A program made the translations under genes and the position numbers. From assembly GCA_005503065.1 (NCBI GenBank), contig SCOE01000026.1, positions 1 to 64,000 of the forward strand: 64,000 nt of DNA, read 5' to 3'. Positions 38,712 through 64,000 of this stretch are shown one piece after another; within the stretch, counting starts at the first letter, position 1, and every line of letters starts with the position of its first letter. The DNA comes from Comamonadaceae bacterium ALPHA2B. Lineage in GTDB: Bacteria > Pseudomonadota > Gammaproteobacteria > Burkholderiales > Burkholderiaceae_C. Under the pieces are notes generated by a model. It searched no databases and had not been told where the DNA came from. It worked only from the letters and a program-made list of their open reading frames with translations.

Positions 38712-38733
38712 AGTCCTGCCCACAATTCGCCCC

Positions 38734-41999: not shown

Positions 42000-42079
42000 C
42001 GCTGCGCAGCGCACGCACCACGCTCCGGCAGGCACGCCTCGTGCGCGTCGGCCATGTTTCCAACCCCCTTCGTTCCTGA
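41996..42079 (+). CDS. 27-codon mini-ORF between HyuB fusion and Bug gene
   Basis: An ATG at 41996 overlaps the hydantoinase-type stop (ATGA) and runs 27 codons (Arg- and Leu-rich) to a TGA at 42077-42079, 7 bases before the Bug start. It has no recognisable domain. It is listed because a similar bridge occurs at the livM/livG junction; it may not be a gene. Confidence 0.2.
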   Translation: MTLRSARTTLRQARLVRVGHVSNPLRS

Positions 42080-42086
42080 TTGCGCC

Positions 42087-43489: not shown

Positions 43490-43580
43490 GCCCGTGCGAT
43501 GCGGCAGCGAACATGCCGCGCCACGAAGTCGAGCGTCGGCAGGCGACGCCAGGATGGCGGGTGGGACGCTGCGGCGGTGA

Positions 43581-43994
43581 TCAAGCGGCGGGCGCGCCCG
43601 GCAGGATCTCCAGGTCCAGGTCGAAGTTGAGTTCGACCTTGAGGCCCAGCGGGTCCTGCAGGAAGACCTGATGAAGCCTCGTGCCCTTGAGCGGCGTCTC
43701 GCTGAACGCCACCTCCGCGGCGGCCAGGGCCTCACGCGTTGCGGCGAGTCCGCGGGCCTTGAGCGCAATGTGGTCGACCGCGCCGCCCTGTCGCGCGGGC
43801 GAGCGCGGCAGCAACGCGTTGAGGTGCAACACCGCTTGCCCGCCGGCGTAGAGCCAGTGGCCTGGATGCCGCAGCCCAGGCCGGTAGCCCTCTTGCAGGC
43901 CGAGCGTGCCCGCATAGAAGGCCAGCAGCGCAGGCAAATCCTCGCGCGCACAGCCGATGGTGACGTGGTGGAGGGCAGAGACGTCAATGCTCAT
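43581..43994 (-). CDS. VOC family protein (extradiol dioxygenase/glyoxalase fold)
   Basis: 137-residue VOC-fold protein: SALHHVTIGCAREDLPALLAFYAGTLGL, VLHLNALLPRS, VFLQDPLGLKVELNF with a likely metal Glu. The start overlaps the stop of the flavin hydroxylase (ATGA, 43991-43994), so the two are coupled. It might act on the hydroxylated product, but the reaction cannot be named. It is convergent with the RidA gene. Confidence 0.86.
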   Translation of the reverse strand: MSIDVSALHHVTIGCAREDLPALLAFYAGTLGLQEGYRPGLRHPGHWLYAGGQAVLHLNALLPRSPARQGGAVDHIALKARGLAATREALAAAEVAFSETPLKGTRLHQVFLQDPLGLKVELNFDLDLEILPGAPAA

Positions 43995-45616
43995 GCCCCG
44001 CTCCCGGATCGGGCCGCGCCGCGGCACAGCACGAGCGCCAACGCGGCGTGCAGCGCTTGGGCCGCATCGGCGACGCCGCTGCGCGAACGCCAGGCGACGT
44101 GGCCGTCAGGCCGGACGAGCACGGCGCCGGCGTTTCCGAGGCCGTAGAGCCGTTCCCAGCCATCGTCGGCAGGTGCGATGCCCCCATCGCCCACGCTGGT
44201 CACGGCGACCGTCAGGCCTGTGACGTGCCGCGCGGCGTCTGCCCAGGCCTGGCCGTGTGCGCCTGTGAGCAGCACGAAGCCGCGGCCGAAGAGGTCGAGC
44301 GTGGAGAAACGCCGCTCGCCTTCCTGCAGCCACGCATGCGGCGCCCTGCAGCCCGGCTGCGCAGTCGGGATGTAGTCCTGCACTGCGTCGGCTGGAGGTG
44401 CCGACTGGCCGTCCTCCGGCACCACCGCGGCCGAGCGATAGGTGGCGCCGAAGACCAGCCCGACTTCATTGAGGAACTCCTTGCGCGGCAGCACCGGCTC
44501 GTCCTGGCGGGCGGTGCGGCCCATCGACAGGGCATTGAGCAGACTGCTGCGGGTCACCGCCTGTCCCACCGGCCGGCGCTCGGCGTCGTAGGTGTCGAGC
44601 AGTTCGTCTCCAGCCTGGCCGTGCAGCACGGCCGCCAGCTTCCAGGCGAGGTTCTGCGCGTCCTGCACGCCGGTGTTCAGGCCGAAGCCGCCGGTGGGCG
44701 GCATCTCGTGTGCGGCATCGCCGGCGAGGAAGACGGGGCCGCTGCGATAGGTTTCGGCGACGAGGGCCGATGCCTTCCATGCGCTCACGCCGAGCACCTT
44801 TACCTGCAGTTCGTCCGTCCCCACCGCGCGGCGGATGACCTCCGTGCAGAACGCGGGCGTGAACTGTTCGGGTGTGAAGCCGTAGTGCGAGAGCGAAGTG
44901 ACCAGGAAGCCCCAGCGGTCGGTGCCATTGATCGTGAGGAAGGTGCCGCGCAGTTCCGGTTGTTCGATCAGGTAGAGCGCCGCCGGCCGCTCGCGGACCC
45001 ACGGTGTGAGGTCGGCGTTGAAATGAATGTTGACGCTGTCGTACACGTCGCGCTCGCCACGTCGGTCGATGCCCAGTTGCGTGCGGATGCGGCTTTGCGA
45101 TCCGTCTGCAGCGATGAGGTAGCGCGCGCGCACCTCCTGGCGCCGGCCTTCGGCGTCCTGGATCGTCGCGTGAACCCCCTGGGAGGTGCAGGCCAGCTCG
45201 ATCAGCTCGGTGTGGAATCGCACCCGCCGGGTCCCGGCCGCTTCGGCGCCTCGGCGCAGCACGGGTTCGAGCAGGTCCTGCGAGCAACCGCAGCTGCCGG
45301 TCACGGAGAGGCCCTGGTTGGCGCCGGTGCCCCGGCCCGGGTTGAGGCGCTTGATCTCGGCGCCCGCCAGGCTTTCGGACCACAGGATCATGTCGCCGAA
45401 GCGCGCCGGCATCGCGACTGCGCGGATGTCGTCCTCCAGGCCGATCTGCCGGTACATCTCCATGGTGCGCGCGTTCAGGGCCCGGGCCTTGGGCAGGATG
45501 GCGGTGCCGGGATGGCGCTCGACCAACAGAGATTCGACGCCGTAGCGGGACAGGAAAATGGAAGCGGTGAGGCCGACGGGGCCACCGCCCACGATCAGCA
45601 CGGGAACATCGGTCAT
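43991..45616 (-). CDS. FAD-dependent aromatic hydroxylase (group A flavin monooxygenase, MhpA/PheA-like)
   Basis: 541-residue flavoprotein hydroxylase. The GGGPVGLT motif is at residues 10-17, the DG motif in AADGSQSRIR and the GD motif in GPVFLAGDAAHEMPP, followed by a thioredoxin-like C-terminal domain as in phenol and 3-hydroxyphenylpropionate hydroxylases. It hydroxylates phenolic rings with NAD(P)H and O2. It overlaps the VOC gene and follows the alpha/beta hydrolase in one operon. The substrate is not readable from sequence. Confidence 0.9.
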   Translation of the reverse strand: MTDVPVLIVGGGPVGLTASIFLSRYGVESLLVERHPGTAILPKARALNARTMEMYRQIGLEDDIRAVAMPARFGDMILWSESLAGAEIKRLNPGRGTGANQGLSVTGSCGCSQDLLEPVLRRGAEAAGTRRVRFHTELIELACTSQGVHATIQDAEGRRQEVRARYLIAADGSQSRIRTQLGIDRRGERDVYDSVNIHFNADLTPWVRERPAALYLIEQPELRGTFLTINGTDRWGFLVTSLSHYGFTPEQFTPAFCTEVIRRAVGTDELQVKVLGVSAWKASALVAETYRSGPVFLAGDAAHEMPPTGGFGLNTGVQDAQNLAWKLAAVLHGQAGDELLDTYDAERRPVGQAVTRSSLLNALSMGRTARQDEPVLPRKEFLNEVGLVFGATYRSAAVVPEDGQSAPPADAVQDYIPTAQPGCRAPHAWLQEGERRFSTLDLFGRGFVLLTGAHGQAWADAARHVTGLTVAVTSVGDGGIAPADDGWERLYGLGNAGAVLVRPDGHVAWRSRSGVADAAQALHAALALVLCRGAARSGSGA

Positions 45617-51382: not shown

Positions 51383-52303
51383 TCACGCGCGCGGCGTGCC
51401 CGCCGCGCGCGTAGGGGCATGCCGCACCCGTTCGCGGTGTGCGGCATACACGCCCGAGCCCACCAGCAGCGCGATGCCGCCCCAGGCCCACGGATCGGGC
51501 CACTGGCCCCAGAGCAGGTGGCCCAGCACCACGGCGAAGAGCAGCGCGGAGTAGCGGAAGGGGGCGGTGAGCGAGATGTCGCCGGTGCGCAGGCTCGCGA
51601 TCAGCAGCAGGTAGGCCGTCGCGAGGAAGCCTGCGGCCAGGGCGAGCATCAGCAGGTGCCGCGGCGCGACCGGCTGCCAGCCCTGGGTGAGCGTCATGGC
51701 GCCGGCCACCAGCGTGAGGAAGACGCTCGTCGACAGCGCGATCACCATCGACGGCAGCGTGGGATCGATGCCGCGCGTGAGCAGGTCACGCAGCGCCTGC
51801 AGCAGCGTGCCGGCCACGCACAGCAGCGCCCAGGCATTGAAGCCGTCGCCCGTCGGCTGCACCACGGCGAGCACGCCGGCGAAGCCCAGGGCCACCGCGA
51901 TCCAGCGCGCCGGCGACGCGCGCTCGCCGAGGAACAGCACGGCGAACAGCGTCATGAACACCGGCGCCGCCAGGTTGATGGCGGTGGCATTGGCCAGCGG
52001 CAGATGGAAGAGCGAGAGCAGGTACAGCACCGTGCCGAAGGCGTCGCAGGCGCTGCGTGCCAGCACGCGTGGCTGCAACGCGCCGGCCAGCCGCGGCATC
52101 GCGCCCTGCTGGCGGATCAGCAGGAGGAACAGTGCGGCGGCAAGGAGGCTGCGCAGGAAGATCAGCTGCGGCCCCGGCAGCGACTGGCTGACGAACCTGA
52201 CGATCGCGTCGTTGGTGGCGAAGCAGCCGGAGGCGCCGACCATCAGCAGGATGCTCCGCCGGGCGGTGGCGCTGGCGTGCGTGGAGAGAAGAGAGGCGGT
52301 CAT
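51383..52303 (-). CDS. EamA/DMT family transporter
   Basis: 306-residue membrane protein with ten predicted spans in two EamA repeats (SILLMVGASGCFATNDAIVRF and ALLCVAGTLLQALRDLLTR starts). Such proteins usually export metabolites. It is the last gene of the minus-strand operon that begins at 61651 and starts 43 bases after the TIM-barrel gene. The ATG 52303 begins the first repeat; the open frame upstream lacks similarity. Confidence 0.87.
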   Translation of the reverse strand: MTASLLSTHASATARRSILLMVGASGCFATNDAIVRFVSQSLPGPQLIFLRSLLAAALFLLLIRQQGAMPRLAGALQPRVLARSACDAFGTVLYLLSLFHLPLANATAINLAAPVFMTLFAVLFLGERASPARWIAVALGFAGVLAVVQPTGDGFNAWALLCVAGTLLQALRDLLTRGIDPTLPSMVIALSTSVFLTLVAGAMTLTQGWQPVAPRHLLMLALAAGFLATAYLLLIASLRTGDISLTAPFRYSALLFAVVLGHLLWGQWPDPWAWGGIALLVGSGVYAAHRERVRHAPTRAAGTPRA

Positions 52304-52346
52304 GGGCGCGGCGAGGGTACCCGATGCGCCGCCGCCACGCCCAGGA

Positions 52347-53231
52347 TCAAACCGCGCTGCGGTGGCGTTCGATGCAGGTGTCGAGCACCTCGTCGCCGTC
52401 GCGCTGCCACCAGTCGAGCTGCGAGAAGATCTCGACCTCGCTGAAGCCCGCGAAGCCCGCGGCCTCCACCCAGCCACGCACCTTCTTCAGCTCGACGATG
52501 CCGTCGCCCATCATGCCCCGGTCGGACAGCAGGTCGCGCGTGGGCGTGAGCCAGTCGCAGACGTGGTAGGCCAGCAGGCGTTCCTTTCCGGCGCGCTCGA
52601 TCTGCTGCTGCAGCTTCGGGTCCCACCACACGTGGTAGATGTCCAGCGCCACGCCGAGCATGCCGCTTCGGTCCGGGTCGAGTTGGTCGCACAGGTCGAG
52701 CGCGTGCTCCAGCGTGTTGATGCAGGCCCGGTCGGCGGCCTGCATGGGATGCAGCGGCTCGATGGCCAGCGGCATGCCCACCTCGCGCGCATGCTCCAGC
52801 GAGGCGGCGATGCCGTCGCGCACCTCGCTGCGTGCGCGGGCGATGTCCTTGTAGGCCGCCTTGCCCTCGAGCGCGCCGGGCAGGGCGCCGACCACGAGCA
52901 CGAGGCAGGGCGCGTCGAGCGTCTTCGCCTCGTCGATGGCGCGGCGGTTGTCGTCCAGCGCGGCGCGCAGGCCGGCCGTGTCGGGCGCCGGGAAGAAGCC
53001 GCCGCGGCAATAGCCCGAGAGGCCGATGCCGTGCGCCTTCAACTGCCTCGCCACGTTGTCGAGGCCGACCGCCGCCACCTGGTCGCGCCACGGGCTGATG
53101 GCTCGGATGCCGCGCTCGGCGCACTGGTCGATGATGCGGGTCAGCGGTACCTCGGTACCGCGCTGCTTGCGCACCGTGGCGGTGTTGATCGAGAGCCAGT
53201 CGTGGTTCGGCGAGAAGTCGCGCATCGTCAT
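52347..53231 (-). CDS. TIM-barrel sugar phosphate isomerase/epimerase family protein
   Basis: 294-residue AP-endonuclease-2/xylose-isomerase-like barrel. The probable metal ligands are Glu in LAIEPLHP, Asp in ALDIYHVWWD, His in AYHVCDW and Glu in SEVEIF. The family covers isomerases of keto sugars, inositol metabolites and C-glycoside-cleaving enzymes. Its ATG overlaps the DUF993 stop (ATGA, 53228-53231). It forms a conserved-looking trio with the DUF993 and Gfo/Idh genes. Substrate unknown. Confidence 0.88.
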   Translation of the reverse strand: MTMRDFSPNHDWLSINTATVRKQRGTEVPLTRIIDQCAERGIRAISPWRDQVAAVGLDNVARQLKAHGIGLSGYCRGGFFPAPDTAGLRAALDDNRRAIDEAKTLDAPCLVLVVGALPGALEGKAAYKDIARARSEVRDGIAASLEHAREVGMPLAIEPLHPMQAADRACINTLEHALDLCDQLDPDRSGMLGVALDIYHVWWDPKLQQQIERAGKERLLAYHVCDWLTPTRDLLSDRGMMGDGIVELKKVRGWVEAAGFAGFSEVEIFSQLDWWQRDGDEVLDTCIERHRSAV

Positions 53232-54412
53232 TCCACGCCGTGCGTGGCCAGCAGCGCCTTCATGCGTCGCACCGCCAGCTCGGGCTGCTCCAGCAGGTCG
53301 GCCGCGTCGGCCAGGCGGAACAGCTCGGCCAGGTGCTGCAGCGAGCGCGTGCTCTGCTGGCCGCCCACCATCGTGAAGTGCGACTGGTGGCCGTTGAGCC
53401 AGGCCATGAAGACCACGCCCGTCTTGTAGAAGCGCGTGGGCGCCTGGAAGATGTGGCGAGACAGCGGCACGGTGGGGCCGAGGATGGCGTGGAAGCGCTC
53501 CAGCCTGCCCAGCGCCAGTTCGCCCAGCGCGGCGCTGGCCGCGGGCGCAATGGCGTCGAAGATGCCCAGCAGTGCATCGCTCTTGCCGTGCGTGGGCTCG
53601 CTGCCGTGGCCGTCGCCGGCGATCAGCTGGGCGTAGTTGAAATCGTCGCCGGTGTACATGCGCACGCCCGGGGCGAGGCGCCGGCGCATGGCGATCTCCT
53701 TGTCCTTGTCGAGCAGCGAGATCTTGATGCCGTCGACCTTGTCGGGGTGCGCGGCGATGATGCCCAAGGCGGTGTCCATCGCGGCGTCGAGGTCCGTGGT
53801 GCCCCAGTAGCCCTTGAGGGCCGGGTCGAACATGTCGCCCAGCCAGTGCAGCACCACCGGCTGCTTCGCCTGGCTCAGCACGCGGTCGTACACGCGCTCG
53901 TAGTCGGCCGGGCTCGTGGCCACGCGCGCCAGCGCGCGGCTGGCCATGACGATGAGCTTGCCGCCCAGCGCCTCGATGGCGGCCATCTGTTCCTCGTAGC
54001 CGCGGATCACGTCGTCGACGCTCTTCACCTCGTCAAGGTTCAGGTGGTCGGTGCCGCAACCGGAGGCGACGAGCGCGCCGGGCACGTCCTTGGCGGCGTC
54101 GAGCGAGCGGCGGATCAGTTCCAGCGAGGTCGGCCAGTCCAGGCCCATGCCGCGCTGTGCGGTGTCCATGGCTTCGGCCACGCCCAGGCCCAGCGACCAC
54201 AGGTGCCGCCGGTAGGCGATCGTGGCGTCCCAGTCGACGGCGGCGGTCAGCCACGGGTCGACGGCTGCGAGCGGGTCGGAGACGACATGGGCGGCCGAAT
54301 AGGCGATGCGGTTGAACTTGACGCCCGGTGCAGGCTTGACGGGCGGGTGGCCGCGCAGCGTGTAGGGTGCCAGCGCGCGGTCCGGCGTCGGGAGGGTGAG
54401 GGTCAGGGCCAT
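53228..54412 (-). CDS. DUF993 family protein (dihydrodipicolinate synthase-like barrel)
   Basis: 394-residue protein of the DUF993 family, distantly related to class I aldolases/DapA. Landmarks are TPYTLRG-type opening, CGTDHLN, GGKLIVMASRALAR, VLHWLGDMFDPALKGYWG, VDGIKISLLDK (Lys of the Schiff-base position) and MYTGDDFNYAQLIAGDG. No function is established that I know of. A retro-aldol cleavage of a keto-sugar acid is a reasonable guess from fold. It is coupled to the TIM-barrel gene by an ATGA overlap. Confidence 0.85.
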   Translation of the reverse strand: MALTLTLPTPDRALAPYTLRGHPPVKPAPGVKFNRIAYSAAHVVSDPLAAVDPWLTAAVDWDATIAYRRHLWSLGLGVAEAMDTAQRGMGLDWPTSLELIRRSLDAAKDVPGALVASGCGTDHLNLDEVKSVDDVIRGYEEQMAAIEALGGKLIVMASRALARVATSPADYERVYDRVLSQAKQPVVLHWLGDMFDPALKGYWGTTDLDAAMDTALGIIAAHPDKVDGIKISLLDKDKEIAMRRRLAPGVRMYTGDDFNYAQLIAGDGHGSEPTHGKSDALLGIFDAIAPAASAALGELALGRLERFHAILGPTVPLSRHIFQAPTRFYKTGVVFMAWLNGHQSHFTMVGGQQSTRSLQHLAELFRLADAADLLEQPELAVRRMKALLATHGVE

Positions 54413-54450
54413 GGGGGGGATCCAGGGAAATTCAAGCCAAATCGGGCTGC

Positions 54451-54492
54451 GGCGCCCGCGGGGCGGGCGCGAGCAGCTATCAAATTTGTAGC
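54451..54492 (-). repeat. Dispersed 42-bp two-part element, copy 5 (reverse), containing the Gfo/Idh stop codon
   Basis: On the minus strand: GCTAC (54492-54488), loop of 7, ATAGC (54480-54476), 18 bases, GGGCGCC (54457-54451). The final Leu, Gln and Ile codons and the TGA (54482-54480) of the Gfo/Idh gene come from the first hairpin, and the GCGCCCG/CGGGCGC hairpin follows. Confidence 0.88.
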
Positions 54493-55643
54493 GTCGGCAC
54501 GTCGATCCAGCGGCGGTCGCCCCAGCTTTGCAGCGCGGCCTCGACCAGTTGCACGCCCTTGGCGCCCTCGGGCAGCGTCCACTTGTACGGCGCGTTCTCG
54601 ACCACGTGGCGGATGAAGTGTTCCCACTGGATCTTGAAGCCGTTGTCGTAGACCTGCGAGTCCGGAATCTCCTGCCACTGGTCGAAGAAGTTCATGGTCT
54701 GCTTGATGTCGGGGTTCCACACCGGGCGCGGCGTCGCCACGCGCGATTGGGCGCGGCAGCTCTGCAGGCCGGCGACGGCCGAGCCGTCGGTGCCGTCGAC
54801 ATGGAAGGTCACCAGGTCGTCGCGCCGCACGCGCGTGACCCAGCTCATGTTGATCTGCGCGATCACCGGCTCGCCGTTGTGTCCGGTGAGCTCCACCGTG
54901 GCGTAGGCCGCGTCGTCCGCGGTGGCCTCATAGGGCTGGCCGGCCTCGTCCCAGCGCCTGGGGATGTGCGTGGTGCCCAGGCAGCTCACCGACTTCACCT
55001 CGCCGAAGAGGTTGTCCAGCACGTAGCGCCAGTGGCACATCATGTCCAGGATCATCCCGCCGCCGTCTTCCTTGCGGTAGTTCCAGCTCGGCCGCTGGAT
55101 GGGCTGCAGGTCGCCTTCGAAGACCCAGTAGCCGAACTCCAGGCGCACGCTCAGCATGCGGCCGAAGAAGCCGGCGCGGCGCAGCATGTCGAGCTTGCGC
55201 AGGCCGGGCAGGAAGAGCTTGTCCTGCACGGCGCCGTGCTTCAGGCCCGAGCCCTGCGCCAGGCGCGCGATCTCCACCGCCTCGTTGAGGTTGGTGGCGA
55301 TGGGCTTCTCGCAGTAGACGTGCTTGCCGGCGCGGATGGCCTGGGCCAGCAGCTGCGGACGCATCTGGGTGGTGCCGGCGTCGAAGAAGATCGTGTCGTC
55401 CTTGTTGGCCAGCGCGGCCTCGAGGTCGGTGCCCCAGCGCTCGATGCCATGGGCCTCGGCGAGCGCCTGGATCTTCTCGGCGTTGCGGCCGATGAGGATG
55501 GGGTCGGGCATCACCTTGTCGCCGTTCGACAAGGTCACGCCGCCTTCGGCGCGGATGGCGCAGATCGAGCGGATGAGGTGCTGGTTCATGCCCATGCGCC
55601 CGGTGACGCCGTGCATGATGAGTCCGAGCCGTTGTTGTGCCAT
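54480..55643 (-). CDS. Gfo/Idh/MocA family oxidoreductase
   Basis: 387-residue NAD(P)-dependent dehydrogenase. The Rossmann opening is atypical, GVTGRMG at residues 12-18 (DapB-like), and the family mark EKPIATN is at residues 112-118; a C-terminal barrel-face domain follows (GGGMILDMMCHWRYVLDNLFG, with a likely catalytic His). Typical substrates are sugars, inositols and their acids. It precedes the DUF993 gene; the intergenic space and the last codons are occupied by a dispersed repeat. Confidence 0.9.
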   Translation of the reverse strand: MAQQRLGLIMHGVTGRMGMNQHLIRSICAIRAEGGVTLSNGDKVMPDPILIGRNAEKIQALAEAHGIERWGTDLEAALANKDDTIFFDAGTTQMRPQLLAQAIRAGKHVYCEKPIATNLNEAVEIARLAQGSGLKHGAVQDKLFLPGLRKLDMLRRAGFFGRMLSVRLEFGYWVFEGDLQPIQRPSWNYRKEDGGGMILDMMCHWRYVLDNLFGEVKSVSCLGTTHIPRRWDEAGQPYEATADDAAYATVELTGHNGEPVIAQINMSWVTRVRRDDLVTFHVDGTDGSAVAGLQSCRAQSRVATPRPVWNPDIKQTMNFFDQWQEIPDSQVYDNGFKIQWEHFIRHVVENAPYKWTLPEGAKGVQLVEAALQSWGDRRWIDVPTLQI

Positions 55644-55679
55644 GGTGTTCCTCCGGAAATGACGGGTGGCGGTCGCGCG

Positions 55680-57110
55680 CTAGACCAGTTCGGCGGCGCG
55701 TTCGAGGGGTTGAAGGTGGTCGAAGTCGGGGTCGGCCGCGTGCGCGAATCCGGTGGCTGCGAGCAGGCTGCCGAGCTGCAGCCGGCCGTCTGCGATGGCC
55801 AGGCGGACCTGCCCGCCTTCATGGCGGTACAGGTCGGGATGCGCCGCGGCGAAGCGCTCGGCCTCGGCCCGGGGCGCCGGGCCGAAGCCGTCGACGTAGT
55901 GGTGGCCGTTGCGCTCGCAGTGCGTGAGGCCGAGCAGCGCGGCCATGGCCAGGTCCTGCTGCACCGCCAGGCCGGCCTGGCAGGTGAGGTCTTCGGCCGA
56001 CATGAAGAGCATGCCGCCGCTGCGCTCGCAGCGCGCGCGATGGATCAAGGCCTTGTAGACGCCCTTGCAGCCCTTGCTCGACACGCCCTGCCAGCCCTGC
56101 GCCACGGCGCGCGGAAACGCATCGAGCGTGCCGTCGCCTTCGTCCAGCAACAGCGGTGCGGGGGCGTCGAGCGTGCGCAGCGGCGCGTCGAGGTCGGCAT
56201 CGCGCGCCAGTGGCTGCTCGATGTAGAGCAGCGCATCGGGCCGTGCGGACAGGCGGGGCAGGGCGCGAAGGCGGTCGAACAGACCGGCGAGCGAATCGAC
56301 GCTCGCATATTGCTCGTTGCCGTCGAGACTGAAGCGGTGACCGGGCGCGATGGCGTCGAGCACGGACAGCACCGCGTCCAGACGGTCGATGTCGGCGGCA
56401 GGGTCGCCGCCCAGCTTGATCTTGAAGCTGCGGTGGCCGTAGCGGCGCACGACGTCCGGCAGGTGCACGGGCAGCGCCGCGGGGTCGGCATCCGGGTCGG
56501 CATCCAGCGCATCGAGCATCCCGACCGTGTGCCGCGCCTCGATGGTTTCTGCCGGTCGACGCGCGGCCAGCCAGGCAGGCCAGTCGAAGCCGGCGAGCTC
56601 GGGGGCCAGCGGCGTATCGGTCAGGCCGGCGATGTTGCGGCGCAGGCCGGCGGCGATATTGCACGCGGCGGTGCGGCACAGGGCATCCAGCACCGCGCGA
56701 TCCAGCACCGCCTGGCCGTAAGCCGAGGACAGGGCAGTCTCTCCCTGTGCGGCGCCCGCGGCCACCAGCGCTTCGTAGTGGCGCTCGAAGAGCCCGAAAG
56801 CGGTGGCCGGCGCATCGCCGCTGTAGGCATCGATGGCGCGCGCCAGGCTGGCCTGGAGATCCCGCACGTTGTCGGCCTGGCTGCGGGCGGGCCGCTTGTC
56901 GAACCAGCGCGGCACCATCATCTCGGCGCTGAAGCCCGCGGCCGTGCCCACGCCGGCCACCTCGACCGTGGCCCGCACGAACAGCTGCGGGCAGCGCGTG
57001 AGCACGACGGCGCCGAACTTGAAGGGCAGGCGCAGGTGCATGTCGCGCACGCCGGCTTCGACGGCACGCACGCGCAGCATGGGTGCCGGGGCAACGGTGG
57101 CGGTGGCCAT
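55680..57110 (-). CDS. Enolase-superfamily protein (mandelate racemase/muconate lactonizing enzyme-like)
   Basis: 476-residue protein of the enolase superfamily, longer than the usual 370-400. The N-terminal cap domain opens AVEAGVRDMHLRLPFKFG; the barrel shows a KxK motif in FKIKLGGD, Asp in SLDGNEQY, Glu/Asp in LLDEGDG, and a terminal HYVDGFGPAP region. This type of enzyme abstracts a proton alpha to a carboxylate (dehydration, epimerisation, lactonisation). An alternative start lies at 57080. Substrate unknown, likely an aldonic or sugar acid. Confidence 0.8.
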   Translation of the reverse strand: MATATVAPAPMLRVRAVEAGVRDMHLRLPFKFGAVVLTRCPQLFVRATVEVAGVGTAAGFSAEMMVPRWFDKRPARSQADNVRDLQASLARAIDAYSGDAPATAFGLFERHYEALVAAGAAQGETALSSAYGQAVLDRAVLDALCRTAACNIAAGLRRNIAGLTDTPLAPELAGFDWPAWLAARRPAETIEARHTVGMLDALDADPDADPAALPVHLPDVVRRYGHRSFKIKLGGDPAADIDRLDAVLSVLDAIAPGHRFSLDGNEQYASVDSLAGLFDRLRALPRLSARPDALLYIEQPLARDADLDAPLRTLDAPAPLLLDEGDGTLDAFPRAVAQGWQGVSSKGCKGVYKALIHRARCERSGGMLFMSAEDLTCQAGLAVQQDLAMAALLGLTHCERNGHHYVDGFGPAPRAEAERFAAAHPDLYRHEGGQVRLAIADGRLQLGSLLAATGFAHAADPDFDHLQPLERAAELV

Positions 57111-57136
57111 CACGGGGGCGAGCAAGAGCCGGCGCG

Positions 57137-57985
57137 TCAGTGCGCGTCGAGGTTGCCCTGGGCGAAGAAGTGGGCGCGCAGGGTGCGGGTGTAGGCCGCG
57201 AAGCGTTCGTGGCCCATCACGTCGAGCGGCCGCGGACGGGGCAGGTCGATGTCGTAGGCCGCCGCGATCTGGCCGGGTCGTTCGCTCATCACGAGCACCC
57301 GGTCGGACAGGAACACCGCCTCGGGGATGCTGTGCGTGATCAGCAGCACCGTCTTGCCGGCGCTCATCCAGATGCGCTGCAGCTCGAGGTTCATGCGCTC
57401 GCGCGTCATGGCGTCGAGGGCGCCGAAGGGTTCGTCCATCAGCAGCACCGGCGGGTCGTGCAGCAGCGCGCGCAGGATGGCCACGCGCTGCTGCATGCCG
57501 CCCGACAACTGCCACGGGTACTTGTGCTCGAAGCCCTGGAGCCCGGCCATCGCCATCAGTTCCTCGGCCCGGCGGCGCGCCGCGGCCATGGGCATGCGGC
57601 GGATCTCCGCCTGCAGCAGGATGTTGTCGATGACCCGCCGCCAGGGCAGCAGCAGGGCGTTCTGGAACACGATACCGACGTCGGTTTGCGGCCCCTTGAC
57701 GGTGTGCCCCGACAGCCGCAGGTCGCCGCCGGTGATCGGCAGCAGCCCGGCCACCATCTTCATCAGCGTGCTCTTGCCGCAGCCCGAGGGGCCGACGATC
57801 GAGACGAACTCGCCCGCGCGGATGTCGAAGTCCAGCGGCTTGAGGGTCTCGACCTCGCCCTCGCGGGTGCGGTAGGTCTTGCTGACGCCGCGGCCCTCGA
57901 TCAGCACCTCGCGCAGGGCGTGGTCGGCGCCGCGGCCGGCGCCGGGCCCATCGAAGGGAAGGACGTTGGTGGGAACGGCACTCAT
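57137..57985 (-). CDS. ABC transporter ATP-binding protein (SsuB/TauB-type)
   Basis: 282-residue ATPase: Walker A GPSGCGKST, signature LSGGMQQRVAILRAL, Walker B LLMDEPFGALDAMTRERM, as in nitrate/sulfonate/taurine importers. It forms an importer with the permease at 59063 and binding protein at 58022, in one operon. It starts 36 bases after the binding-protein gene stops. Confidence 0.93.
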   Translation of the reverse strand: MSAVPTNVLPFDGPGAGRGADHALREVLIEGRGVSKTYRTREGEVETLKPLDFDIRAGEFVSIVGPSGCGKSTLMKMVAGLLPITGGDLRLSGHTVKGPQTDVGIVFQNALLLPWRRVIDNILLQAEIRRMPMAAARRRAEELMAMAGLQGFEHKYPWQLSGGMQQRVAILRALLHDPPVLLMDEPFGALDAMTRERMNLELQRIWMSAGKTVLLITHSIPEAVFLSDRVLVMSERPGQIAAAYDIDLPRPRPLDVMGHERFAAYTRTLRAHFFAQGNLDAH

Positions 57986-58021
57986 CGGGTCGGGCTTGGC
58001 TGGGGAGCGAAGAAGAGCGTC

Positions 58022-59020
58022 TTACTGCGGCAGGAAATCGTTGGTGACCCAGTCGTCGGCCTTGCCGCGCAGCGACGCGTCGAGACCGCCGTACTGCACC
58101 AGCAGGTCGAGCGAGGCGTCGATGTCTTTCATCGAGGCGCGCAGCGGCCGCAGGTTCTTGGTCTCGGCCGTGTGGTAGAGCGGCGTGGTCAGCTTGATGC
58201 CGATGATCAGCGTGTCGCGCTGGCCGGCCTTGGCATTGGCCTTGAGCATCGCGTCGATCGCACCCTCGGGGTCTTTCTCGGTCGCTTCGAAGGCCTTCGT
58301 GGTGGCACGCATGAAGCGCTTGACCAGGTCGCCCTTGTTGGCGAGCGTGTCCTTGTTGGCCACGATGCCGGAGCTGACCATCTCGATGCCGTAGTCGGCG
58401 AAGCGGATCACCTGCACCGGCTTCTTGGTCGCGTCCTGCACCTTGATGTTCTGGTCCATCAGGTAGCCCAGCAGCAGGTCGGCCTGGCCGTTGATGACGG
58501 CGTTGAGCTTGGTCTGCGCGTCGCCCGAGACGACCTTGTAGTCGCCTTCCTTGAGGCCCGTCTTCTTGAGGAACAGCGGCCAGATCTGGCTCATCGAGTC
58601 GCCGGGCGTCATGGCCACCGTCTTGCCGACGATGTCCTTGGGTGTCTTGATGTTCTTCTCGGCCAGGCCCATCACCGACATGGGACTGACCTGCAGCGCC
58701 ACGCCCACGGCCTTGACCGGCGCGCCCTTGGTGGCGGCGCGGATCATGGTGGGCACGTCGACGTAGCCGAAGGTGGCCGAATTGGCGGCCACGGCCTGGA
58801 TCGACACTGCCGACCCACGGCCTTCCTGGATGTCGAGGTCGATGCCCTCGGCCTCGTAGAAGCCCTTGGCCTTGCCCATGAAGAAGGGTGCGTGCTCGCT
58901 GTAGACGTACCAGTTCAAGAGCAGCGTCACCTTGTCGCGCGTCTGCGCCACTGCGCTGGTTGCCATGCCCAGGGCGAGGGCGGCGGCGCAGGTGGCGCCG
59001 ATGAGTTTGCGTCGTTGCAT
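58022..59020 (-). CDS. ABC transporter substrate-binding protein (SsuA/THI5/NMT1-like)
   Basis: 332-residue periplasmic protein with signal peptide (QRRKLIGATCAAALALGMATSAVAQ) and NMT1/THI5-like fold: LLLNWYVYSEHAPFFMGKAKGFYEAEG and GRGSAVSIQAVAAN. Ligands in this family include aliphatic and aromatic sulfonates, nitrate, pyrimidine precursors. The operon context does not settle the ligand. Confidence 0.88.
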   Translation of the reverse strand: MQRRKLIGATCAAALALGMATSAVAQTRDKVTLLLNWYVYSEHAPFFMGKAKGFYEAEGIDLDIQEGRGSAVSIQAVAANSATFGYVDVPTMIRAATKGAPVKAVGVALQVSPMSVMGLAEKNIKTPKDIVGKTVAMTPGDSMSQIWPLFLKKTGLKEGDYKVVSGDAQTKLNAVINGQADLLLGYLMDQNIKVQDATKKPVQVIRFADYGIEMVSSGIVANKDTLANKGDLVKRFMRATTKAFEATEKDPEGAIDAMLKANAKAGQRDTLIIGIKLTTPLYHTAETKNLRPLRASMKDIDASLDLLVQYGGLDASLRGKADDWVTNDFLPQ

Positions 59021-59062
59021 GCGTGTCTCCGTGTGGTTGTGGTGCGGGGAACGAAAGAGGCG

Positions 59063-59845
59063 TCAGGCGGTGGCCTGCAGGTCGTGGCGTTGCGAGGCAT
59101 GCCAGGGCATGAGCCAGCGCTCCACCAACTCGACGATGAGGAACAGGATCACGCCCATCATCGACAGCACCACCAGGGCGGCGAACATCAGCGGCAGGTC
59201 GAAGGTGCCGGTGGCGCGCTGCAGCACGAAGCCCAGGCCGGAGTTGGAGCCGACGAACTCGCCGACCACGGCACCGACCACGGCCAGCGTGACCGAGACC
59301 TTCAGGCCGCTGAAGATCGCCGGCAGGGCCTGGGGCAGGCGGAACTTGAGGAAGATCTTCATCGGCCCGGCACCCATCGAGCGCGCCAGGTCGATCACGT
59401 CGGGCTCGACCGACTTGAAGCCCTGCACCGTCGACACCACCACCGGGAAGAAGCCCAGCAGGAAGGCGGCGATGACCTTGGGCACGATGCCGAAGCCGAA
59501 CCACACCACGAAGAGCGGCGCGACGGCGACCTTGGGGATCGACTGCGAGAACACCAGCAGGGGGTAGACGAAGCTCTCGACCGTGCGCGAGTAGGCGATC
59601 CACATGGCGATCGGCACGCCGATGAGGGCCGAGGCGACGAAGCCGCCCAGGGTCGCGTAGAGCGTCGGCAGGCTCTGCTGGAGCAGCATCGACCAGTCGG
59701 TCCCGAGCTGCTTGATGACGGCCATCGGCGGGGGGATCAGGTAGGGCGGGATCTTGAATATGCGCACCAGCAGGTCCCACAGGACCAGCAGGACCAGCAG
59801 GAGCCAGAAGGGCCGCGCGGCGGGGTGGGTGATCCAGCGACTCAT
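59063..59845 (-). CDS. ABC transporter permease (SsuC/TauC-type)
   Basis: 260-residue permease with about six spans and the EAA-like motif AARSMGAGPMKIFLKFRLPQALPAI-like region (ARSMGAGPMKIFLKFRLP). It is the partner of the ATPase and binding protein. It follows the PhyH gene; a 42-bp GC-rich inverted element (59881-59912) lies in that gap. Confidence 0.92.
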   Translation of the reverse strand: MSRWITHPAARPFWLLLVLLVLWDLLVRIFKIPPYLIPPPMAVIKQLGTDWSMLLQQSLPTLYATLGGFVASALIGVPIAMWIAYSRTVESFVYPLLVFSQSIPKVAVAPLFVVWFGFGIVPKVIAAFLLGFFPVVVSTVQGFKSVEPDVIDLARSMGAGPMKIFLKFRLPQALPAIFSGLKVSVTLAVVGAVVGEFVGSNSGLGFVLQRATGTFDLPLMFAALVVLSMMGVILFLIVELVERWLMPWHASQRHDLQATA

Positions 59846-59880
59846 GTCAATGGCGCCCGGCCGCCCGAAGGCATTGACGT

Positions 59881-59912
59881 GCCCCCTTGGGGGGAAGCGA
59901 TGAGCGTGGGGG
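59881..59912. repeat. GC-rich GCCCCC...GGGGGC inverted element
   Basis: GCCCCCTTGGGGGG at 59881-59894 is itself a hairpin and the element ends GTGGGGGC at 59912, so the ends pair. It lies between the PhyH gene and the permease gene. It resembles in style the element at 29028-29090. Confidence 0.5.
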
Positions 59913-59919
59913 CTTCATG

Positions 59920-60657
59920 TCATGACACCTGGAACTTCAGGGAGTGGTCGTAGGGCAGCGCCGGGTTGTCGAAGCTGTTGGCGTTGCTGACGAAGTGCAG
60001 GGCGCAGGCGCGGCGCCATTTGCTGCTGTGGTTGGGGCCGGAATGGTGGAAGGTGTTGCCGTGGTGGAAGCTCACGCCGCCCTTGCGCACGGGGGCCGGC
60101 GTCATCGGCTGCTTGTCGAGGATCTCGGGCGGAATCTGCAGGTTGTAGGGCTCGTTCTCGGGCGCGAAATGGGTATAGACGGGGCCGAGGTTGGTGCCGT
60201 CGCCGAAGTACAGGCAGCCGTTCTCCAGCGTGGCGTCGTCCAGCGCGATCCAGGCGGTGACCATGCCTTCCGGGTCGGCCGGTCCGAAGTAGAAGTTGTC
60301 CTGGTGCGCCGGCTTCGGCCCGCCACCTTCGGGCGGCTTGAAGAAGATCTGGCTGAAGTACACCGACACGCCCGAGCCGATCAGGGTCTCGACGTGGTCC
60401 AGCAGGCGCCGGTCGCGTGCCAGCGCCTGCACGGCGGCGCGGTGGAAGTGGGGGTTGTCGAGCTTGCGGAGCACGGTGCGCGCCTGCACGCCGCCGTCGA
60501 TGTACCAGGCGCGCTGCTGCTCGGGCAGGCCGGCGAGGAAGCTCTCGCCCCACTGCTCGATGTCGCGCACCACCGCGTCCATCTCGCCGGGCTCGAAGAC
60601 ATGGTTCACCGTGAGGTGGCCGTGGTGCCGATAGTAGGCGACGTCGTAGGCGTCCAT
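59920..60657 (-). CDS. Phytanoyl-CoA dioxygenase (PhyH) family Fe(II)/2-oxoglutarate oxygenase
   Basis: 245-residue non-heme iron oxygenase. The iron ligands are His118 and Asp120 (HQDN) with distal His204 or His205 in FHHGNTFHHSGPN; Arg near 215-216 would bind 2-oxoglutarate. PhyH proteins hydroxylate small molecules, for example 2-aminoethylphosphonate (PhnY). It lies at the start of an SsuABC-like importer operon, a position held by TauD in taurine loci. It may start oxidative release of a substituent. Substrate unknown. Confidence 0.87.
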   Translation of the reverse strand: MDAYDVAYYRHHGHLTVNHVFEPGEMDAVVRDIEQWGESFLAGLPEQQRAWYIDGGVQARTVLRKLDNPHFHRAAVQALARDRRLLDHVETLIGSGVSVYFSQIFFKPPEGGGPKPAHQDNFYFGPADPEGMVTAWIALDDATLENGCLYFGDGTNLGPVYTHFAPENEPYNLQIPPEILDKQPMTPAPVRKGGVSFHHGNTFHHSGPNHSSKWRRACALHFVSNANSFDNPALPYDHSLKFQVS

Positions 60658-60679
60658 GGCGCTGTGCTCCTGTGTGGTG

Positions 60680-61651
60680 TCACTGCTGCCCGGCGAGGCC
60701 CGCGGCCTTCACCACGTCGGCGTTGCTCGCGATCTCTTCCTTGATATAGGCATCGAACTGTCGGGGCTTGAGCGTCCAGGGGTCGGCGCCCAGCTTGGCG
60801 AACCGTTCCTTGACCTCGGGGGTGGCGAGCGCCTTCTCGACCTCGGCATGCAGCCGGTCGACGATCTCGCGCGGCGTCCTGGCGGGGGCCATCATCCCGA
60901 TCCAGAAGTTGAACTCCGAGCCCGGCACACCGGCCTCGGTGGTGGTCGGCACGTCGGGCAGGGCGCTGGCGCGCTTGGGCGAACCCACGGCCAGTGCCAG
61001 GAGCTGGCCGTCCTTGATCTGGCCGATGACCGGCGCGATGGGCGAGAAGTAGTAGTCGACCCGGCCCGCCAGCACTTCGGTCACCGCCTCGGCCGAGCCC
61101 TTGAACGGGATGTTGGTGGCCTGGATCTTCGCCGCGAGCTTGAACTTCTCGGCGTTCAGGTGCGTGGCGCTGCCCTGGCCGGCCGAAGCGAAGTTCAGGC
61201 TGCCGGGCTTGGCCCGGGCGGCGGCGAGCAACTCCTGCAGCGACTTGATGTTCTTGGCCGGCGAGATCACCAGTGCGTTCGACAGCGAGGAGATCGGCGT
61301 GACCCCGGCGAAGTCGTTCACCGTGTCGAAGGGCAGCTTCGCGAAAGTCGACGGGCTGACCGTGTGCGAGGACGAGTGGATGAGGATCGTGTAGCCGTCG
61401 GGCGCAGCCGTGGCGACGGCCTGCTGGCCGATGGTGCCGCTGGCGCCGCCGCGGTTGTCCACCACCAGCGTCTGGCCCATGCTCTGGCCCATCTTGTCGG
61501 TGATGGCGCGGGCAATGATGTCGGTGGTGCTGCCCGCGGCGAAGGGCACGACCACCCGGATCGGCTTGCTGGGATAGGCGTTCTGGGCCTGGATGCCCAC
61601 AGTGCTCAGGCTCACGAAGGCCGCCGTGGCGGCCAGTGCGGCGATGCGCAT
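60680..61651 (-). CDS. Bug/TctC family binding protein
   Basis: 323-residue periplasmic protein with signal peptide (RIAALAATAAFVSLSTVGIQAQ) and the Bug opening PIRVVVPFAAGSTTDIIARA with DNRGGASGTIGQ. It is the first gene of the ten-gene operon and has a good promoter at 61695-61724 with an operator at 61671-61688. AGGAG precedes the start. No TctAB permease is present. Confidence 0.91.
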   Translation of the reverse strand: MRIAALAATAAFVSLSTVGIQAQNAYPSKPIRVVVPFAAGSTTDIIARAITDKMGQSMGQTLVVDNRGGASGTIGQQAVATAAPDGYTILIHSSSHTVSPSTFAKLPFDTVNDFAGVTPISSLSNALVISPAKNIKSLQELLAAARAKPGSLNFASAGQGSATHLNAEKFKLAAKIQATNIPFKGSAEAVTEVLAGRVDYYFSPIAPVIGQIKDGQLLALAVGSPKRASALPDVPTTTEAGVPGSEFNFWIGMMAPARTPREIVDRLHAEVEKALATPEVKERFAKLGADPWTLKPRQFDAYIKEEIASNADVVKAAGLAGQQ

Positions 61652-61670
61652 GCTTGTCTCCTGTTCTTTT

Positions 61671-61688
61671 ATTCACCAGAAAGTGAAT
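61671..61688. promoter_or_regulatory. TetR-type operator, ATTCAC-N6-GTGAAT
   Basis: Perfect palindrome with 6-bp arms and 6-bp spacer. It lies at about +1 of the promoter upstream of the Bug gene, a place where a bound repressor would block transcription. The same pattern recurs at 62410-62427. Confidence 0.65.
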
Positions 61689-61694
61689 TAAAGA

Positions 61695-61724
61695 ATTCTA
61701 GGGAGACCGCCGCCGCGCCGTCAA
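61695..61724 (-). promoter_or_regulatory. Sigma-70-type promoter of the ten-gene operon
   Basis: Minus strand: TTGACG (-35, 61724-61719), 18-base spacer, TAGAAT (-10, 61700-61695). Both boxes match five of six consensus positions. The predicted start is near 61688, inside the operator. Confidence 0.7.
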
Positions 61725-61751
61725 CGCAACCTGTCTCGGTAGATACCCGTG

Positions 61752-62396
61752 TCAGCGCATCACGTAGCCGAGCACCAGTTCGGTCATGTGCGAGAGCCGC
61801 TGCGCCATCGCCTTGGGCGCGCGCAGGTCACGTCCGAAGATGGCCGACAGGGTAGGGTTGTTCGAGAGGTAGAAGTAGCACAGCGACGCGATCGAGATGT
61901 AGAGCTGGATCGGGTCGATGCCGGCGTGGAACAGCTGCTGTCGCCGGCCGCGCTCCAGGATGCCGTCGAGCAACTGCACCAGGGGCGAGTTCATCTCCTG
62001 GATGCGCTCCGAGCGCTTCAGGTGCACCGCCCTATGCAGGTTCTCGCTGTTGAGCAGGGTGATGAACTCGGGGTGTTCGAGGTAGTAGTGCCAGGTGAAT
62101 GAGATCAACTGGCGGATGGCCTCGACCGGCTCCACTTCATCGAGGTGCAGGCGTTGCTCGGCTTCGCGGATGTCGGCATAGGTGCGCTCGAGCACCGCGA
62201 GGAAGAGGTCGTCCTTGCTGCCGAAGTAGTAGTAGATGAGGCGCTTGTTGACGTCGGCGCGCTCGGCGATGCGGTCGACCCTTGCACCGGCCAGGCCGTG
62301 GTTGGCGAACTCGTCGCGTGCGGCAAGGAGGATCGCCGCCTGCGAGCGGTCGGCATCGCGCAGGCGGGTTTCGACGACGGGGGCGGCGGCGGACAT
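61752..62396 (-). CDS. TetR family transcriptional regulator
   Basis: 214-residue regulator with N-terminal TetR winged-type helices (LAARDEFANHGLAGARVDRIAERADVNKRLIYYYFGSKDDLFL) and a helical ligand domain. It lies between the operon and the divergent ThDP gene and ends 100 bp before the Bug start. A matching palindrome occurs on both sides, so it probably represses the operon and the ThDP gene and itself. Confidence 0.93.
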   Translation of the reverse strand: MSAAAPVVETRLRDADRSQAAILLAARDEFANHGLAGARVDRIAERADVNKRLIYYYFGSKDDLFLAVLERTYADIREAEQRLHLDEVEPVEAIRQLISFTWHYYLEHPEFITLLNSENLHRAVHLKRSERIQEMNSPLVQLLDGILERGRRQQLFHAGIDPIQLYISIASLCYFYLSNNPTLSAIFGRDLRAPKAMAQRLSHMTELVLGYVMR

Positions 62397-62409
62397 GGTC
62401 TGGGCTTCA

Positions 62410-62427
62410 ATTCACTATATGGTTAAT
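62410..62427. promoter_or_regulatory. TetR-type operator, ATTCAC-N6-GTTAAT
   Basis: Same layout as 61671-61688 with one mismatch in the right arm. It lies 13 bp upstream of the tetR start and 62 bp upstream of the ThDP gene start, so one bound dimer could affect both. Confidence 0.6.
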
Positions 62428-62488
62428 TCTTATGGGCCGCAATCGGCACTGCCGATAATCGCCGAACTCTGCAGCACCACTTTCTCCA

Positions 62489-64000
62489 ATGACCACCCAG
62501 ATCGCCGGACACCTCCTCGTCGAATGCCTGATCGCCCAGGGCGTGACCCATGTGTTCGGTGTGCCGGGCGAGAGCTACCTGGCGGCGCTGGACGGCTTCC
62601 ACGACCATGCGGACGAGATCCGCTTCGTGATCTGCCGGCAGGAGGGCGGCGCCGCCTTCATGGCCGAGGCGCACGGCAAGCTGACCGGGCGGCCCGGCGT
62701 TTGCTTCGTCACCCGCGGGCCAGGCGCGACGAATGCGTCGATCGGCGTGCACACCGCCTTCCAGGATTCGACGCCGATGGTGCTGCTGGTGGGCGATGTC
62801 GGCAGCGACTTCCGCGATCGCGAGGCCTTCCAGGAAGTGGATTTCCAGAGCTTCTTCGGGCCGAGCACCAAGGGCTTCGCCAAGCGCGTGGAGCGGGTCG
62901 ACGAGGCGGCACGCCTGCCCGAGTACGTCGCGCGTGCGTTCGCCACGGCGATGAACGGGCGGCCAGGACCGGTGGTCCTCGTGCTGCCGGAGGACATGTT
63001 GCGCAGCGCGGTCGACGCCGCGCCGCTGGCGCGCGTGGAGCCGGCGCTGGCCTGGGCCGACCCGGGCGGGCTGCGCGAGTTGCGGCAACTGCTGCTGGCG
63101 GCCCGGCGGCCGTTCGTGATCGCCGGCGGAGGCGGGTGGACGCCGCAGGCCGCCCAGGCGCTGCAACGCTTCGCGGAGAACTGGCAACTGCCCGTGGGCA
63201 ATGCCTTCCGCTTCCAGGATACCTTCGACAACCACCACCCGCTGTACGCGGGCGACGTGGGCATCGGCATCAATCCGAAGCTCGCGGCCCGGGTGCGCGA
63301 CGCCGACCTGGTGATCGCGATCGGGCCACGCCTGGGCGAGATGACCACCGGAGGCTACGCACTGCTGGAGGCCCCGCGCCCGGCGCAGAAGCTGGTGCAC
63401 TTCCATGCCAGCGCCGAGGAGCTGCATCGTGTGTACCAGGCCGATCTGGTGTTCAACACGACCATGAATGCAGCGGCGAGGGCACTGGAGGTGCTCACGG
63501 CGCCGCCCGAGCTGCCCTGGAGCGACTGGGCGCAAGCCGTGCATGCGGACTATGAAGCCAACCTCGTGCCGCAAGCACTGCCCGGACCCATCGACATGCC
63601 GGCCATCGTGCAGTGCCTGCAGAAGCACCTGCCGACCGATGCGGTGCTGACCAACGGCGCCGGCAATTTCGCGAGCTGGATGCATCGCTTCTTTCGCCAT
63701 ACCGGGCTGGCCAAGGGCTTCAAGACGCAGCTCGCGCCCACCAGCGGTGCAATGGGCTATGGCGTGCCGGCCGGTATCGCCGCCAGCATCGCGACCGGGC
63801 GCGTGGCCTTCACGATCGCGGGCGACGGCGACTTCCTGATGAACGGACAGGAGCTTGCCACGGCCGTGCAGCATGGCGGCAAGAGCATCATCGTGCTGCT
63901 CAACAACGGCATGTACGGCACGATCCGCATGCACCAGGAGCGCGAGTACCCCGTGCGGGTCAGCGGCACGGCGCTGAACAACCCCGATTTCTGCGCGCTG
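62489..64000 (+). CDS. Thiamine diphosphate-dependent enzyme (acetolactate synthase-like; partial, C-terminus off window)
   Basis: 504 codons from ATG at 62489 to the window edge. The N-terminal ThDP domain has the catalytic Glu52 (CRQEGGAAFMAEA) and VTRGPGATNASIGVHTAFQD; the C-terminal ThDP-Mg motif is GDGDFLMNGQELATAV near residue 446. It is of the IlvB/benzoylformate decarboxylase group: decarboxylase, lyase or carboligase. The divergent TetR gene and the shared operator tie it to the ten-gene operon. It is not IlvB proper, since no small subunit is seen nearby. Confidence 0.92.
   Translation, partial: MTTQIAGHLLVECLIAQGVTHVFGVPGESYLAALDGFHDHADEIRFVICRQEGGAAFMAEAHGKLTGRPGVCFVTRGPGATNASIGVHTAFQDSTPMVLLVGDVGSDFRDREAFQEVDFQSFFGPSTKGFAKRVERVDEAARLPEYVARAFATAMNGRPGPVVLVLPEDMLRSAVDAAPLARVEPALAWADPGGLRELRQLLLAARRPFVIAGGGGWTPQAAQALQRFAENWQLPVGNAFRFQDTFDNHHPLYAGDVGIGINPKLAARVRDADLVIAIGPRLGEMTTGGYALLEAPRPAQKLVHFHASAEELHRVYQADLVFNTTMNAAARALEVLTAPPELPWSDWAQAVHADYEANLVPQALPGPIDMPAIVQCLQKHLPTDAVLTNGAGNFASWMHRFFRHTGLAKGFKTQLAPTSGAMGYGVPAGIAASIATGRVAFTIAGDGDFLMNGQELATAVQHGGKSIIVLLNNGMYGTIRMHQEREYPVRVSGTALNNPDFCAL

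Follow-up and report, generated by a model that had tools for sequence, protein, structure and literature searches.

DUF993 and its neighbours in a Comamonadaceae bacterium: a probable TetR regulon proposed for catabolism of polyhydroxylated acids or cyclitols

Two described routes come close to the gene set reported here: myo-inositol catabolism, with its enzymes IolG, IolE/IolI and IolD, and the oxidative route for uronates and galactarate, which employs uronate dehydrogenase, an enolase-superfamily enzyme (galactarolactone cycloisomerase) and KdgD, a member of the dihydrodipicolinate synthase (DHDPS) family. Our set occupies positions 51383 to 64000 of a 64,000-nucleotide stretch (the window; contig SCOE01000026.1, positions 1 to 64,000) from Comamonadaceae bacterium ALPHA2B, whose 6.0-Mb assembly we call G000, and it is built around DUF993, a protein family with a known shape and no known job. 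We propose, at a probability of about 0.52, that this is a TetR-controlled regulon for the catabolism of a polyhydroxylated carboxylate or cyclitol-type compound, which would be oxidised, isomerised and split at a C-C bond through a Schiff base and would go in part to glycerate; as a polyol/acid catabolic regulon around DUF993 it is apparently undescribed.

Likeness to inositol catabolism lies in a Gfo/Idh dehydrogenase, a xylose-isomerase-like triosephosphate isomerase (TIM) barrel enzyme and, in some strains, a thiamine diphosphate (ThDP) enzyme, with weak hits to IolG, IolI and IolO. The cut-offs of IolG (62 against 355 bits for the Gfo/Idh protein) and IolO are missed, however, the window operon adds carboxylate carriers and an enolase-superfamily gene, and DUF993 is, to our knowledge, no part of the inositol pathway. 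With the uronate/galactarate route the locus shares an enolase fold, a DHDPS-fold enzyme and an acid importer, but the GTTGE-type motif is missing from DUF993, and the trio of Gfo/Idh, DUF993 and TIM genes is also found without an enolase gene. S. meliloti genes SMc04130-SMc04139 (tag order partly inferred) likewise combine Gfo, DUF993, enolase and TIM under a TetR regulator, yet have a CUT1 sugar importer and extra Gfo/Idh genes where the window has an NMT1-type importer. SMc04132, SMc04133, SMc04135, SMc04138 and SMc04139 fall into one protein module with negative values (PMC12542648), and the accessible parts of PMC12542648, PMC11387232, PMC12904279 and PMC9608346 give no substrate. Nothing relevant was found in the searched literature for tags SMa1400-SMa1414, and no paper in it names DUF993, with most subscription papers and preprints outside its coverage.

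On the minus strand eleven genes, that of the TetR regulator included, run from 62396 to 51383. The sequence-only reading had counted ten plus a divergent ThDP gene; the divergence is as described and the count is eleven, while the families it named (PhyH, SsuABC-like, enolase, Gfo/Idh, DUF993, isomerase, ThDP and TetR) were all found by Pfam and NCBIfam. Intergenic gaps from TetR to EamA are 100, 22, 74, 42, 36, 26, 36, 67, -4 and 43 bp, nine of the ten being below 75 bp, a spacing that is compatible with a predicted operon. The features are as follows.

61752..62396, minus strand: TetR/RutR-like regulator (TetR_C_29; Pfam and NCBIfam, under the RutR cut-off)
61671..61688, no strand: probable TetR operator 1, perfect ATTCAC-N6-GTGAAT, 19 bp before the Bug start
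62410..62427, no strand: probable TetR operator 2, one mismatch, in the TetR/ThDP divergent promoter
60680..61651, minus strand: Bug/TctC periplasmic binding protein (Pfam PF03401, E 2.1e-72)
59920..60657, minus strand: PhyH-family Fe(II)/2-oxoglutarate oxygenase, accessory (Pfam)
59063..59845, minus strand: ATP-binding cassette (ABC) permease, TauC/SsuC-like, under both cut-offs (Pfam, NCBIfam)
58022..59020, minus strand: NMT1/THI5-type substrate-binding protein (Pfam, NCBIfam)
57137..57985, minus strand: ABC ATPase (Pfam, NCBIfam)
55680..57110, minus strand: enolase-superfamily enzyme with a lysine pattern like that of muconate lactonizing enzyme (MLE) (Pfam, invariant residues, AlphaFold2 fold)
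54480..55643, minus strand: Gfo/Idh/MocA dehydrogenase, core (Pfam; PDB relative 3oqb)
53228..54412, minus strand: DUF993, DHDPS-like TIM barrel with K230, core, proposed Schiff-base C-C lyase (Pfam E 2.8e-185; PDB 4dnh)
52347..53231, minus strand: xylose-isomerase-like TIM barrel, core, putative isomerase/epimerase (Pfam; PDB relatives)
51383..52303, minus strand: EamA-family permease, lineage-specific last gene (Pfam; start from codon-score caller)
62489..64000, plus strand, running past the window end to its stop at contig position 64180: divergent ThDP enzyme, PRK08199 family, over cut-off (Pfam, NCBIfam)

The enolase gene is placed at 55680-57110 (or 57125) as against a 4.1-kb open reading frame (ORF) reaching 59780, and EamA is started near 52303 by our codon-score caller; with the longer GTG-start ORF, up to 52477, it would overlap the TIM gene.

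Recurrence of this gene order is more than chance grouping. Our sample comprises the 80 best named loci from a DUF993 scan and is not random; 77 loci were usable for Gfo, 77 for TIM and 68 (with at least 7 kb upstream) for the wider gene set. Because our own codon-score caller, which was compared by eye with one annotated locus, did not work for every locus (10 of 80 came out less than 70% coding), modules were counted by tblastn. Of 77 loci, 70 have Gfo/Idh directly upstream of DUF993 in the same orientation, and 72 of 77 have a TIM gene no more than 7 kb downstream, again on the DUF993 strand. A TetR homologue (at least 44% identity) is present in 59 of the 68 loci and an enolase in 46, the remaining 22 being without one. 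The best-matching named loci belong to Comamonadaceae genera, among them Variovorax, Xenophilus and Pseudacidovorax, and the order TetR-[transport]-enolase-Gfo-DUF993-TIM is repeated across Burkholderiales and, within the Alphaproteobacteria, for example in Bradyrhizobium and Microvirga; in relatives, too, the ThDP gene is the divergent neighbour of TetR. Of 200 sampled genomes in the window's family 47 contain DUF993, which is also found in Alphaproteobacteria and Actinomycetota, there mostly adjoining a dehydrogenase gene.

Transport genes follow a pattern of their own. All three ABC genes are found in 32 of the 68 loci, each time with an enolase (32/32), and a close Bug gene in 18, nine with and nine without enolase. 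Among the 14 loci with an enolase and no such ABC set, 11 carry genes for Tct carriers and for a second TIM enzyme (TIM2; in L081, one of these, TctA was not called), one (L027) has a sugar-type ABC set beside the enolase and two (L021, L029) could not be called. These locus counts therefore mark Gfo-DUF993-TIM as the core and enolase plus carrier (ABC or tripartite) as an exchangeable front end, with ThDP (18/68), PhyH (4/68) and EamA (4/68) as additions in some lineages. The sequence-only reading, which had asked that the trio be compared across genomes, is thus upheld in seeing a conserved, apparently undescribed catabolic unit with two kinds of entry route, but not in making PhyH the opening step or ThDP cleavage a general one, although further family genomes outside the named set (G046, G071, G082, G177, G192, G199) carry PhyH homologues, some of them sequence-identical to named ones.

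Control by TetR, which had been suspected before, gains probable operators. Judged by its sites and their spread, ATTCAC-N6-GTGAAT is probably bound by the TetR regulator. The copy at 61671-61688 is the sole perfect one in the 6.0-Mb genome; one-mismatch copies exist genome-wide only at 62410 and at G000:C16:50274, the latter with an unlike centre, so we rejected the idea of a wide TetR regulon in this genome. Across the 80 named loci, 38 consensus sites fall into 28 loci, while a pattern with swapped half-sites yields 0. Where genes were well called (70 loci), none of the 33 sites lies inside a gene, with intergenic DNA at 12%. In Burkholderiales loci sites with up to two mismatches stand before TetR and/or the first gene of the next operon, be it a Bug, TctC, permease, PhyH, Gfo or epimerase gene, so that here a palindrome marks the module promoters as would befit a TetR regulon. 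Among the 200 family genomes 31 have a perfect site, one each, and 25 of these 31 sites lie no more than 8.5 kb from DUF993, measured between start positions. The off-locus perfect sites of G012, G062 and G115 we regard as probable background. The reversed pattern came up in 0 of 200 genomes and in 1 of 399. Bradyrhizobium-type loci differ: in 21 of them no palindrome common to both promoters was found, and in 15 of the 21 a half-site TTATCC (palindrome, spacer 4) precedes the permease.

The same operator also reaches beyond the core locus. In G097 it stands before an epimerase-DHDPS-TctC-TctB-TctA-TIM2-enolase operon on a contig other than that of its Gfo-DUF993-Bug-SDR-reductase-TIM locus (SDR, short-chain dehydrogenase/reductase), and in L200 (from G098) modules of the G097 type are in one row with the trio. 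The window's genome has a sister operon at G000:C33:189900-198000 (L140:8925-16980), with a TetR (51%), an NAD-epimerase-type SDR, a GNAT protein, a DHDPS protein of weak KdgD/NanA similarity, a permease, an NMT1 binding protein, an ATPase and a second enolase (46% identical); it has no strict operator and no DUF993 among its called genes.

Further clues come from 18 annotated plasmid DUF993 loci, chosen for diversity and not at random. Seven have an annotated glycerate kinase no further than 6 kb from DUF993 (P. yeei, Rhodococcus, Glaciihabitans, Octadecabacter, M. ossetica, P. kondratievae, S. meliloti pSymA), and Pfam finds another in L192; elsewhere in the window's genome there are a tartronate semialdehyde reductase, which scores over cut-off, and a glycerate kinase. 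TIM is adjacent or next but one to DUF993 in 16 of the 18, being missing in L122 and L130. A reductase (c38) that resembles tartronate-semialdehyde and threonate reductases, albeit under curated cut-offs, turned up among the called genes of five named loci and follows DUF993 in four. Other dehydrogenases appear to stand in for Gfo: an SDR lies directly upstream of DUF993 in L123, L129 and L131-L133, and a shikimate-dehydrogenase-like gene directly upstream in P. caribensis (L119) and three genes upstream in G132 (L194), no Gfo gene being seen in L119 and L194. DUF993 loci of the SDR or shikimate-dehydrogenase type usually carry CoA-transferase, enoyl-CoA hydratase or acyl-CoA dehydrogenase genes, too; in L194, the labels GfoB and SDRb were dropped, the genes being a CoA-transferase and an acyl-CoA dehydrogenase. 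As an aside, L121 (CP090106.1) is a 3.7-Mb record named pSymB with an apparent SMc04130-04139 region, whose tags suggest a chromosome, so its replicon name may be wrong.

DUF993 was predicted by AlphaFold2 with a mean predicted local distance difference test (pLDDT) score of 87.7. Its top Foldseek match is 4dnh (hypothetical protein SMc04132), a structure mentioned once in a lizard gut study (PMC13209948), and the other 49 matches listed are DHDPS-superfamily folds (E 2e-9 to 6e-8) at 12-18% identity. K230 is invariant in 33 of 33 homologues and falls, at the end of strand 6, into the Schiff-base lysine column of all eight aligned DHDPS-family proteins from the window's genome. DUF993 thus shares barrel and lysine position with the DHDPS/N-acetylneuraminate lyase superfamily of class I aldolases but not its GTTGE-like motif, whose role is pyruvate binding: 11 DUF993 rows read EAMDTAQRG at the G-T/S/G-T-G-E position, where five of eight DHDPS-family rows keep the motif and three deviate, and HWLGDMF replaces the YNVPG strand of DapA. 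The lysine match rests on multiple alignment plus fold, because a profile comparison with DHDPS40 stayed at chance level. By fold and lysine alignment, then, DUF993 is possibly a Schiff-base C-C lyase, in keeping with the cleavage role first assigned to it.

For the enolase-superfamily protein, residues K230, K232, D263, E298, D323 and K346 are invariant (31/31) and reproduce the MLE-like arrangement of that superfamily: KxK on strand 2, D/E/D metal ligands and a lysine on strand 6. Its AlphaFold2 model (pLDDT 92.9) has a putative sugar isomerase, o-succinylbenzoate synthase and N-acylamino acid racemases among its first fold matches, and no sequence relative was found in the PDB at E 0.001. 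Distant enolase relatives (34-35%) also lie near Gfo/Idh in the haloarchaeal plasmid loci L134 and L135, the latter with sugar isomerases, GNAT and polysaccharide-acting genes as well. Gfo/Idh has the PDB relative 3oqb (E 3e-187), deposited merely as an oxidoreductase; its other scores are weak, with IolG best in NCBIfam and levoglucosan dehydrogenase (NF052479) at 50 against a cut-off of 650 bits. PDB relatives of the TIM enzyme are 3ju2 (uncharacterized SMc04130), 3qc0 (sugar isomerase), 7vpf (E 1e-62) and then IolI (E 1.4e-5), while TIM2 resembles psicose/tagatose 3-epimerases and IolO under curated cut-offs. No paper in the searched literature names 3oqb, 3qc0 or 7vpf, and the single hit for 3ju2 belongs to mathematics. 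Full-length PhyH homologues retain the HxD...H...R residues that have known roles in this family. A glyoxylate carboligase role of the ThDP enzyme was rejected, as glutamate is kept where the carboligase has valine. Past the ThDP gene an isocitrate lyase-family gene (L005:6509-7846) recurs near ThDP in several relatives and is probably an ordinary neighbour.

Put together, a pathway can be envisaged in which uptake of the acid would fall to the NMT1-type ABC importer, to a Bug-dependent carrier or to both. The enolase-fold enzyme may then take the proton next to the carboxylate to epimerise or dehydrate one substrate form into that used by the core, and PhyH may be a strain-specific oxygenase for a further modified form. 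In the core, Gfo/Idh would oxidise a hydroxyl to a ketone with NAD(P), the presumably metal-dependent TIM enzyme would isomerise or epimerise this ketone, and DUF993 would form a Schiff base via Lys230 and break a C-C bond by retro-aldol cleavage; at least one C3 fragment might reach glycerate through tartronate semialdehyde or hydroxypyruvate. Trio conservation, operator spread, the off-locus operon of G097, the K230 column, the TIM2 and c38 likenesses, the glycerate kinase neighbours and the SDR or shikimate-dehydrogenase-like stand-ins for Gfo all favour such a scheme.

Several observations speak against it. The gene set has no established substrate or activity; DUF993 is without the pyruvate-binding motif, so that the donor is unclear, and its profile comparison with DHDPS40 yields but a chance-level hit. 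A perfect operator site also occurs in 4 of 153 family genomes that lack DUF993 and in 18 of 385 genomes outside the family (taken regardless of DUF993 content), and the strict pattern was not found in Bradyrhizobium and Roseomonas loci. Downstream, no glycerate kinase was seen in 11 of the 18 plasmid loci or beside the window operon (there is one at G000:C5), and c38 is confined to few loci. Finally, 7vpf, the close TIM relative, was deposited as a xylose isomerase and would fit a plain sugar.

As for the chemistry, DUF993 may be a dehydratase, hydrolase or isomerase on a similar substrate and not a lyase at all. DHDPS-like families include dehydratases such as KdgD, and both the DHDPS-like fold and the loss of the usual pyruvate-binding motif are consistent with this; nothing specific opposes it, lysine and fold suiting lyase, dehydratase, hydrolase and isomerase alike. 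To our minds this is somewhat unlikely.

As for the substrate, a linear acid sugar and an alicyclic acid are about equally open. With the former, in parallel to the known oxidative uronate route, the enolase would dehydrate or cycloisomerise an aldonate or aldarate, Gfo/Idh would oxidise the 2-keto-3-deoxy acid and DUF993 would cleave it. The sister operon of G000, which joins an epimerase-type SDR, the weakly KdgD/NanA-like DHDPS protein and an enolase, argues for this, as do the ketose-3-epimerase-like TIM2, the Tct carriers and the glycerate kinase near some loci. Yet that epimerase-type protein has neither a PDB relative at E 0.001 nor an NCBIfam hit, and the 22 enolase-free loci and the missing pyruvate motif of DUF993 fit poorly. 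We regard this reading as unlikely.

A no less doubtful counterpart of inositol catabolism would have a ring hydroxyl of an alicyclic acid or cyclitol oxidised and the ring opened by DUF993 through retro-aldol cleavage. The shikimate-dehydrogenase-like genes near DUF993 in P. caribensis and G132 and the weak IolG, IolI and IolO similarities point this way, even though the IolG and IolO scores are under curated cut-offs. So does G170 (L191:819-9479), a genome in which the family scan found no DUF993: there the operator precedes a row of DctP, FAD_binding_2, shikimate-dehydrogenase-like, FAD_binding_2, NIPSNAP, TIM, TetR and EamA genes, and its TetR groups with the regulators linked to DUF993 (clade nodes 0.77 and 1.0). 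But G170 is a single genome, the nodes nearest to its TetR (0.16 and 0) are unsupported, and a related shikimate-dehydrogenase-like row in Diaphorobacter adjoins an IclR regulator instead. One may guess that the G170 row means aromatisation of an alicyclic acid.

Catabolism of a sulfonate or C-glycoside, suggested by an importer of the same class as SsuABC/TauABC and by a glycosyl hydrolase in one Rhizobium locus of the enolase family, is very improbable, as binding protein, ATPase and permease score far under the Ssu/Tau cut-offs (76 of 163.5 bits for the SsuA family, 192 of 395 for the SsuB type, 77 of 347 for SsuC), relatives have Tct carriers in place of the ABC set, and the window operon lacks any family known as a desulfonating enzyme or glycosidase. 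DUF6379, the small partner subunit of C-glycoside deglycosidase systems, is not listed in general family scans of the window proteins, no search aimed at C-glycosides having been made. Of the compound classes offered by the sequence-only reading, a sugar acid stays in play and a sulfonate finds no support past the class of its transporter, with an alicyclic (cyclitol or quinate-like) acid as the other option.

Elsewhere in the window, 26246-45616 holds a second catabolic stretch with a Rieske oxygenase, a Peripla_BP_6 binding protein, an amidohydrolase, hydantoinase B and an FAD aromatic hydroxylase, and within 3780-9944 an SBP_bac_5 binding protein, an M81/MlrC-type protein and a DHDPS-family protein are a few genes apart.

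Returning to the proposed TetR regulon, relatives of its core enzymes have solved structures under general names, and no paper on their role was found in the searched literature. In its boldest and tentative form, which we would think rather improbable, DUF993 could be a new C-C cleaving class I aldolase without pyruvate binding, which splits open an oxidised cyclitol or alicyclic acid ring, or cuts the corresponding open-chain keto acid, in a widespread, undescribed catabolic route fed by Gfo/Idh, SDR or shikimate-dehydrogenase-like enzymes, with enolase, oxygenase and transporter modules widening the substrate range under one TetR. Together, the probable operator, the three-gene core and the swap-in modules make the substrate hunt testable through TetR rather than through enzyme guessing.

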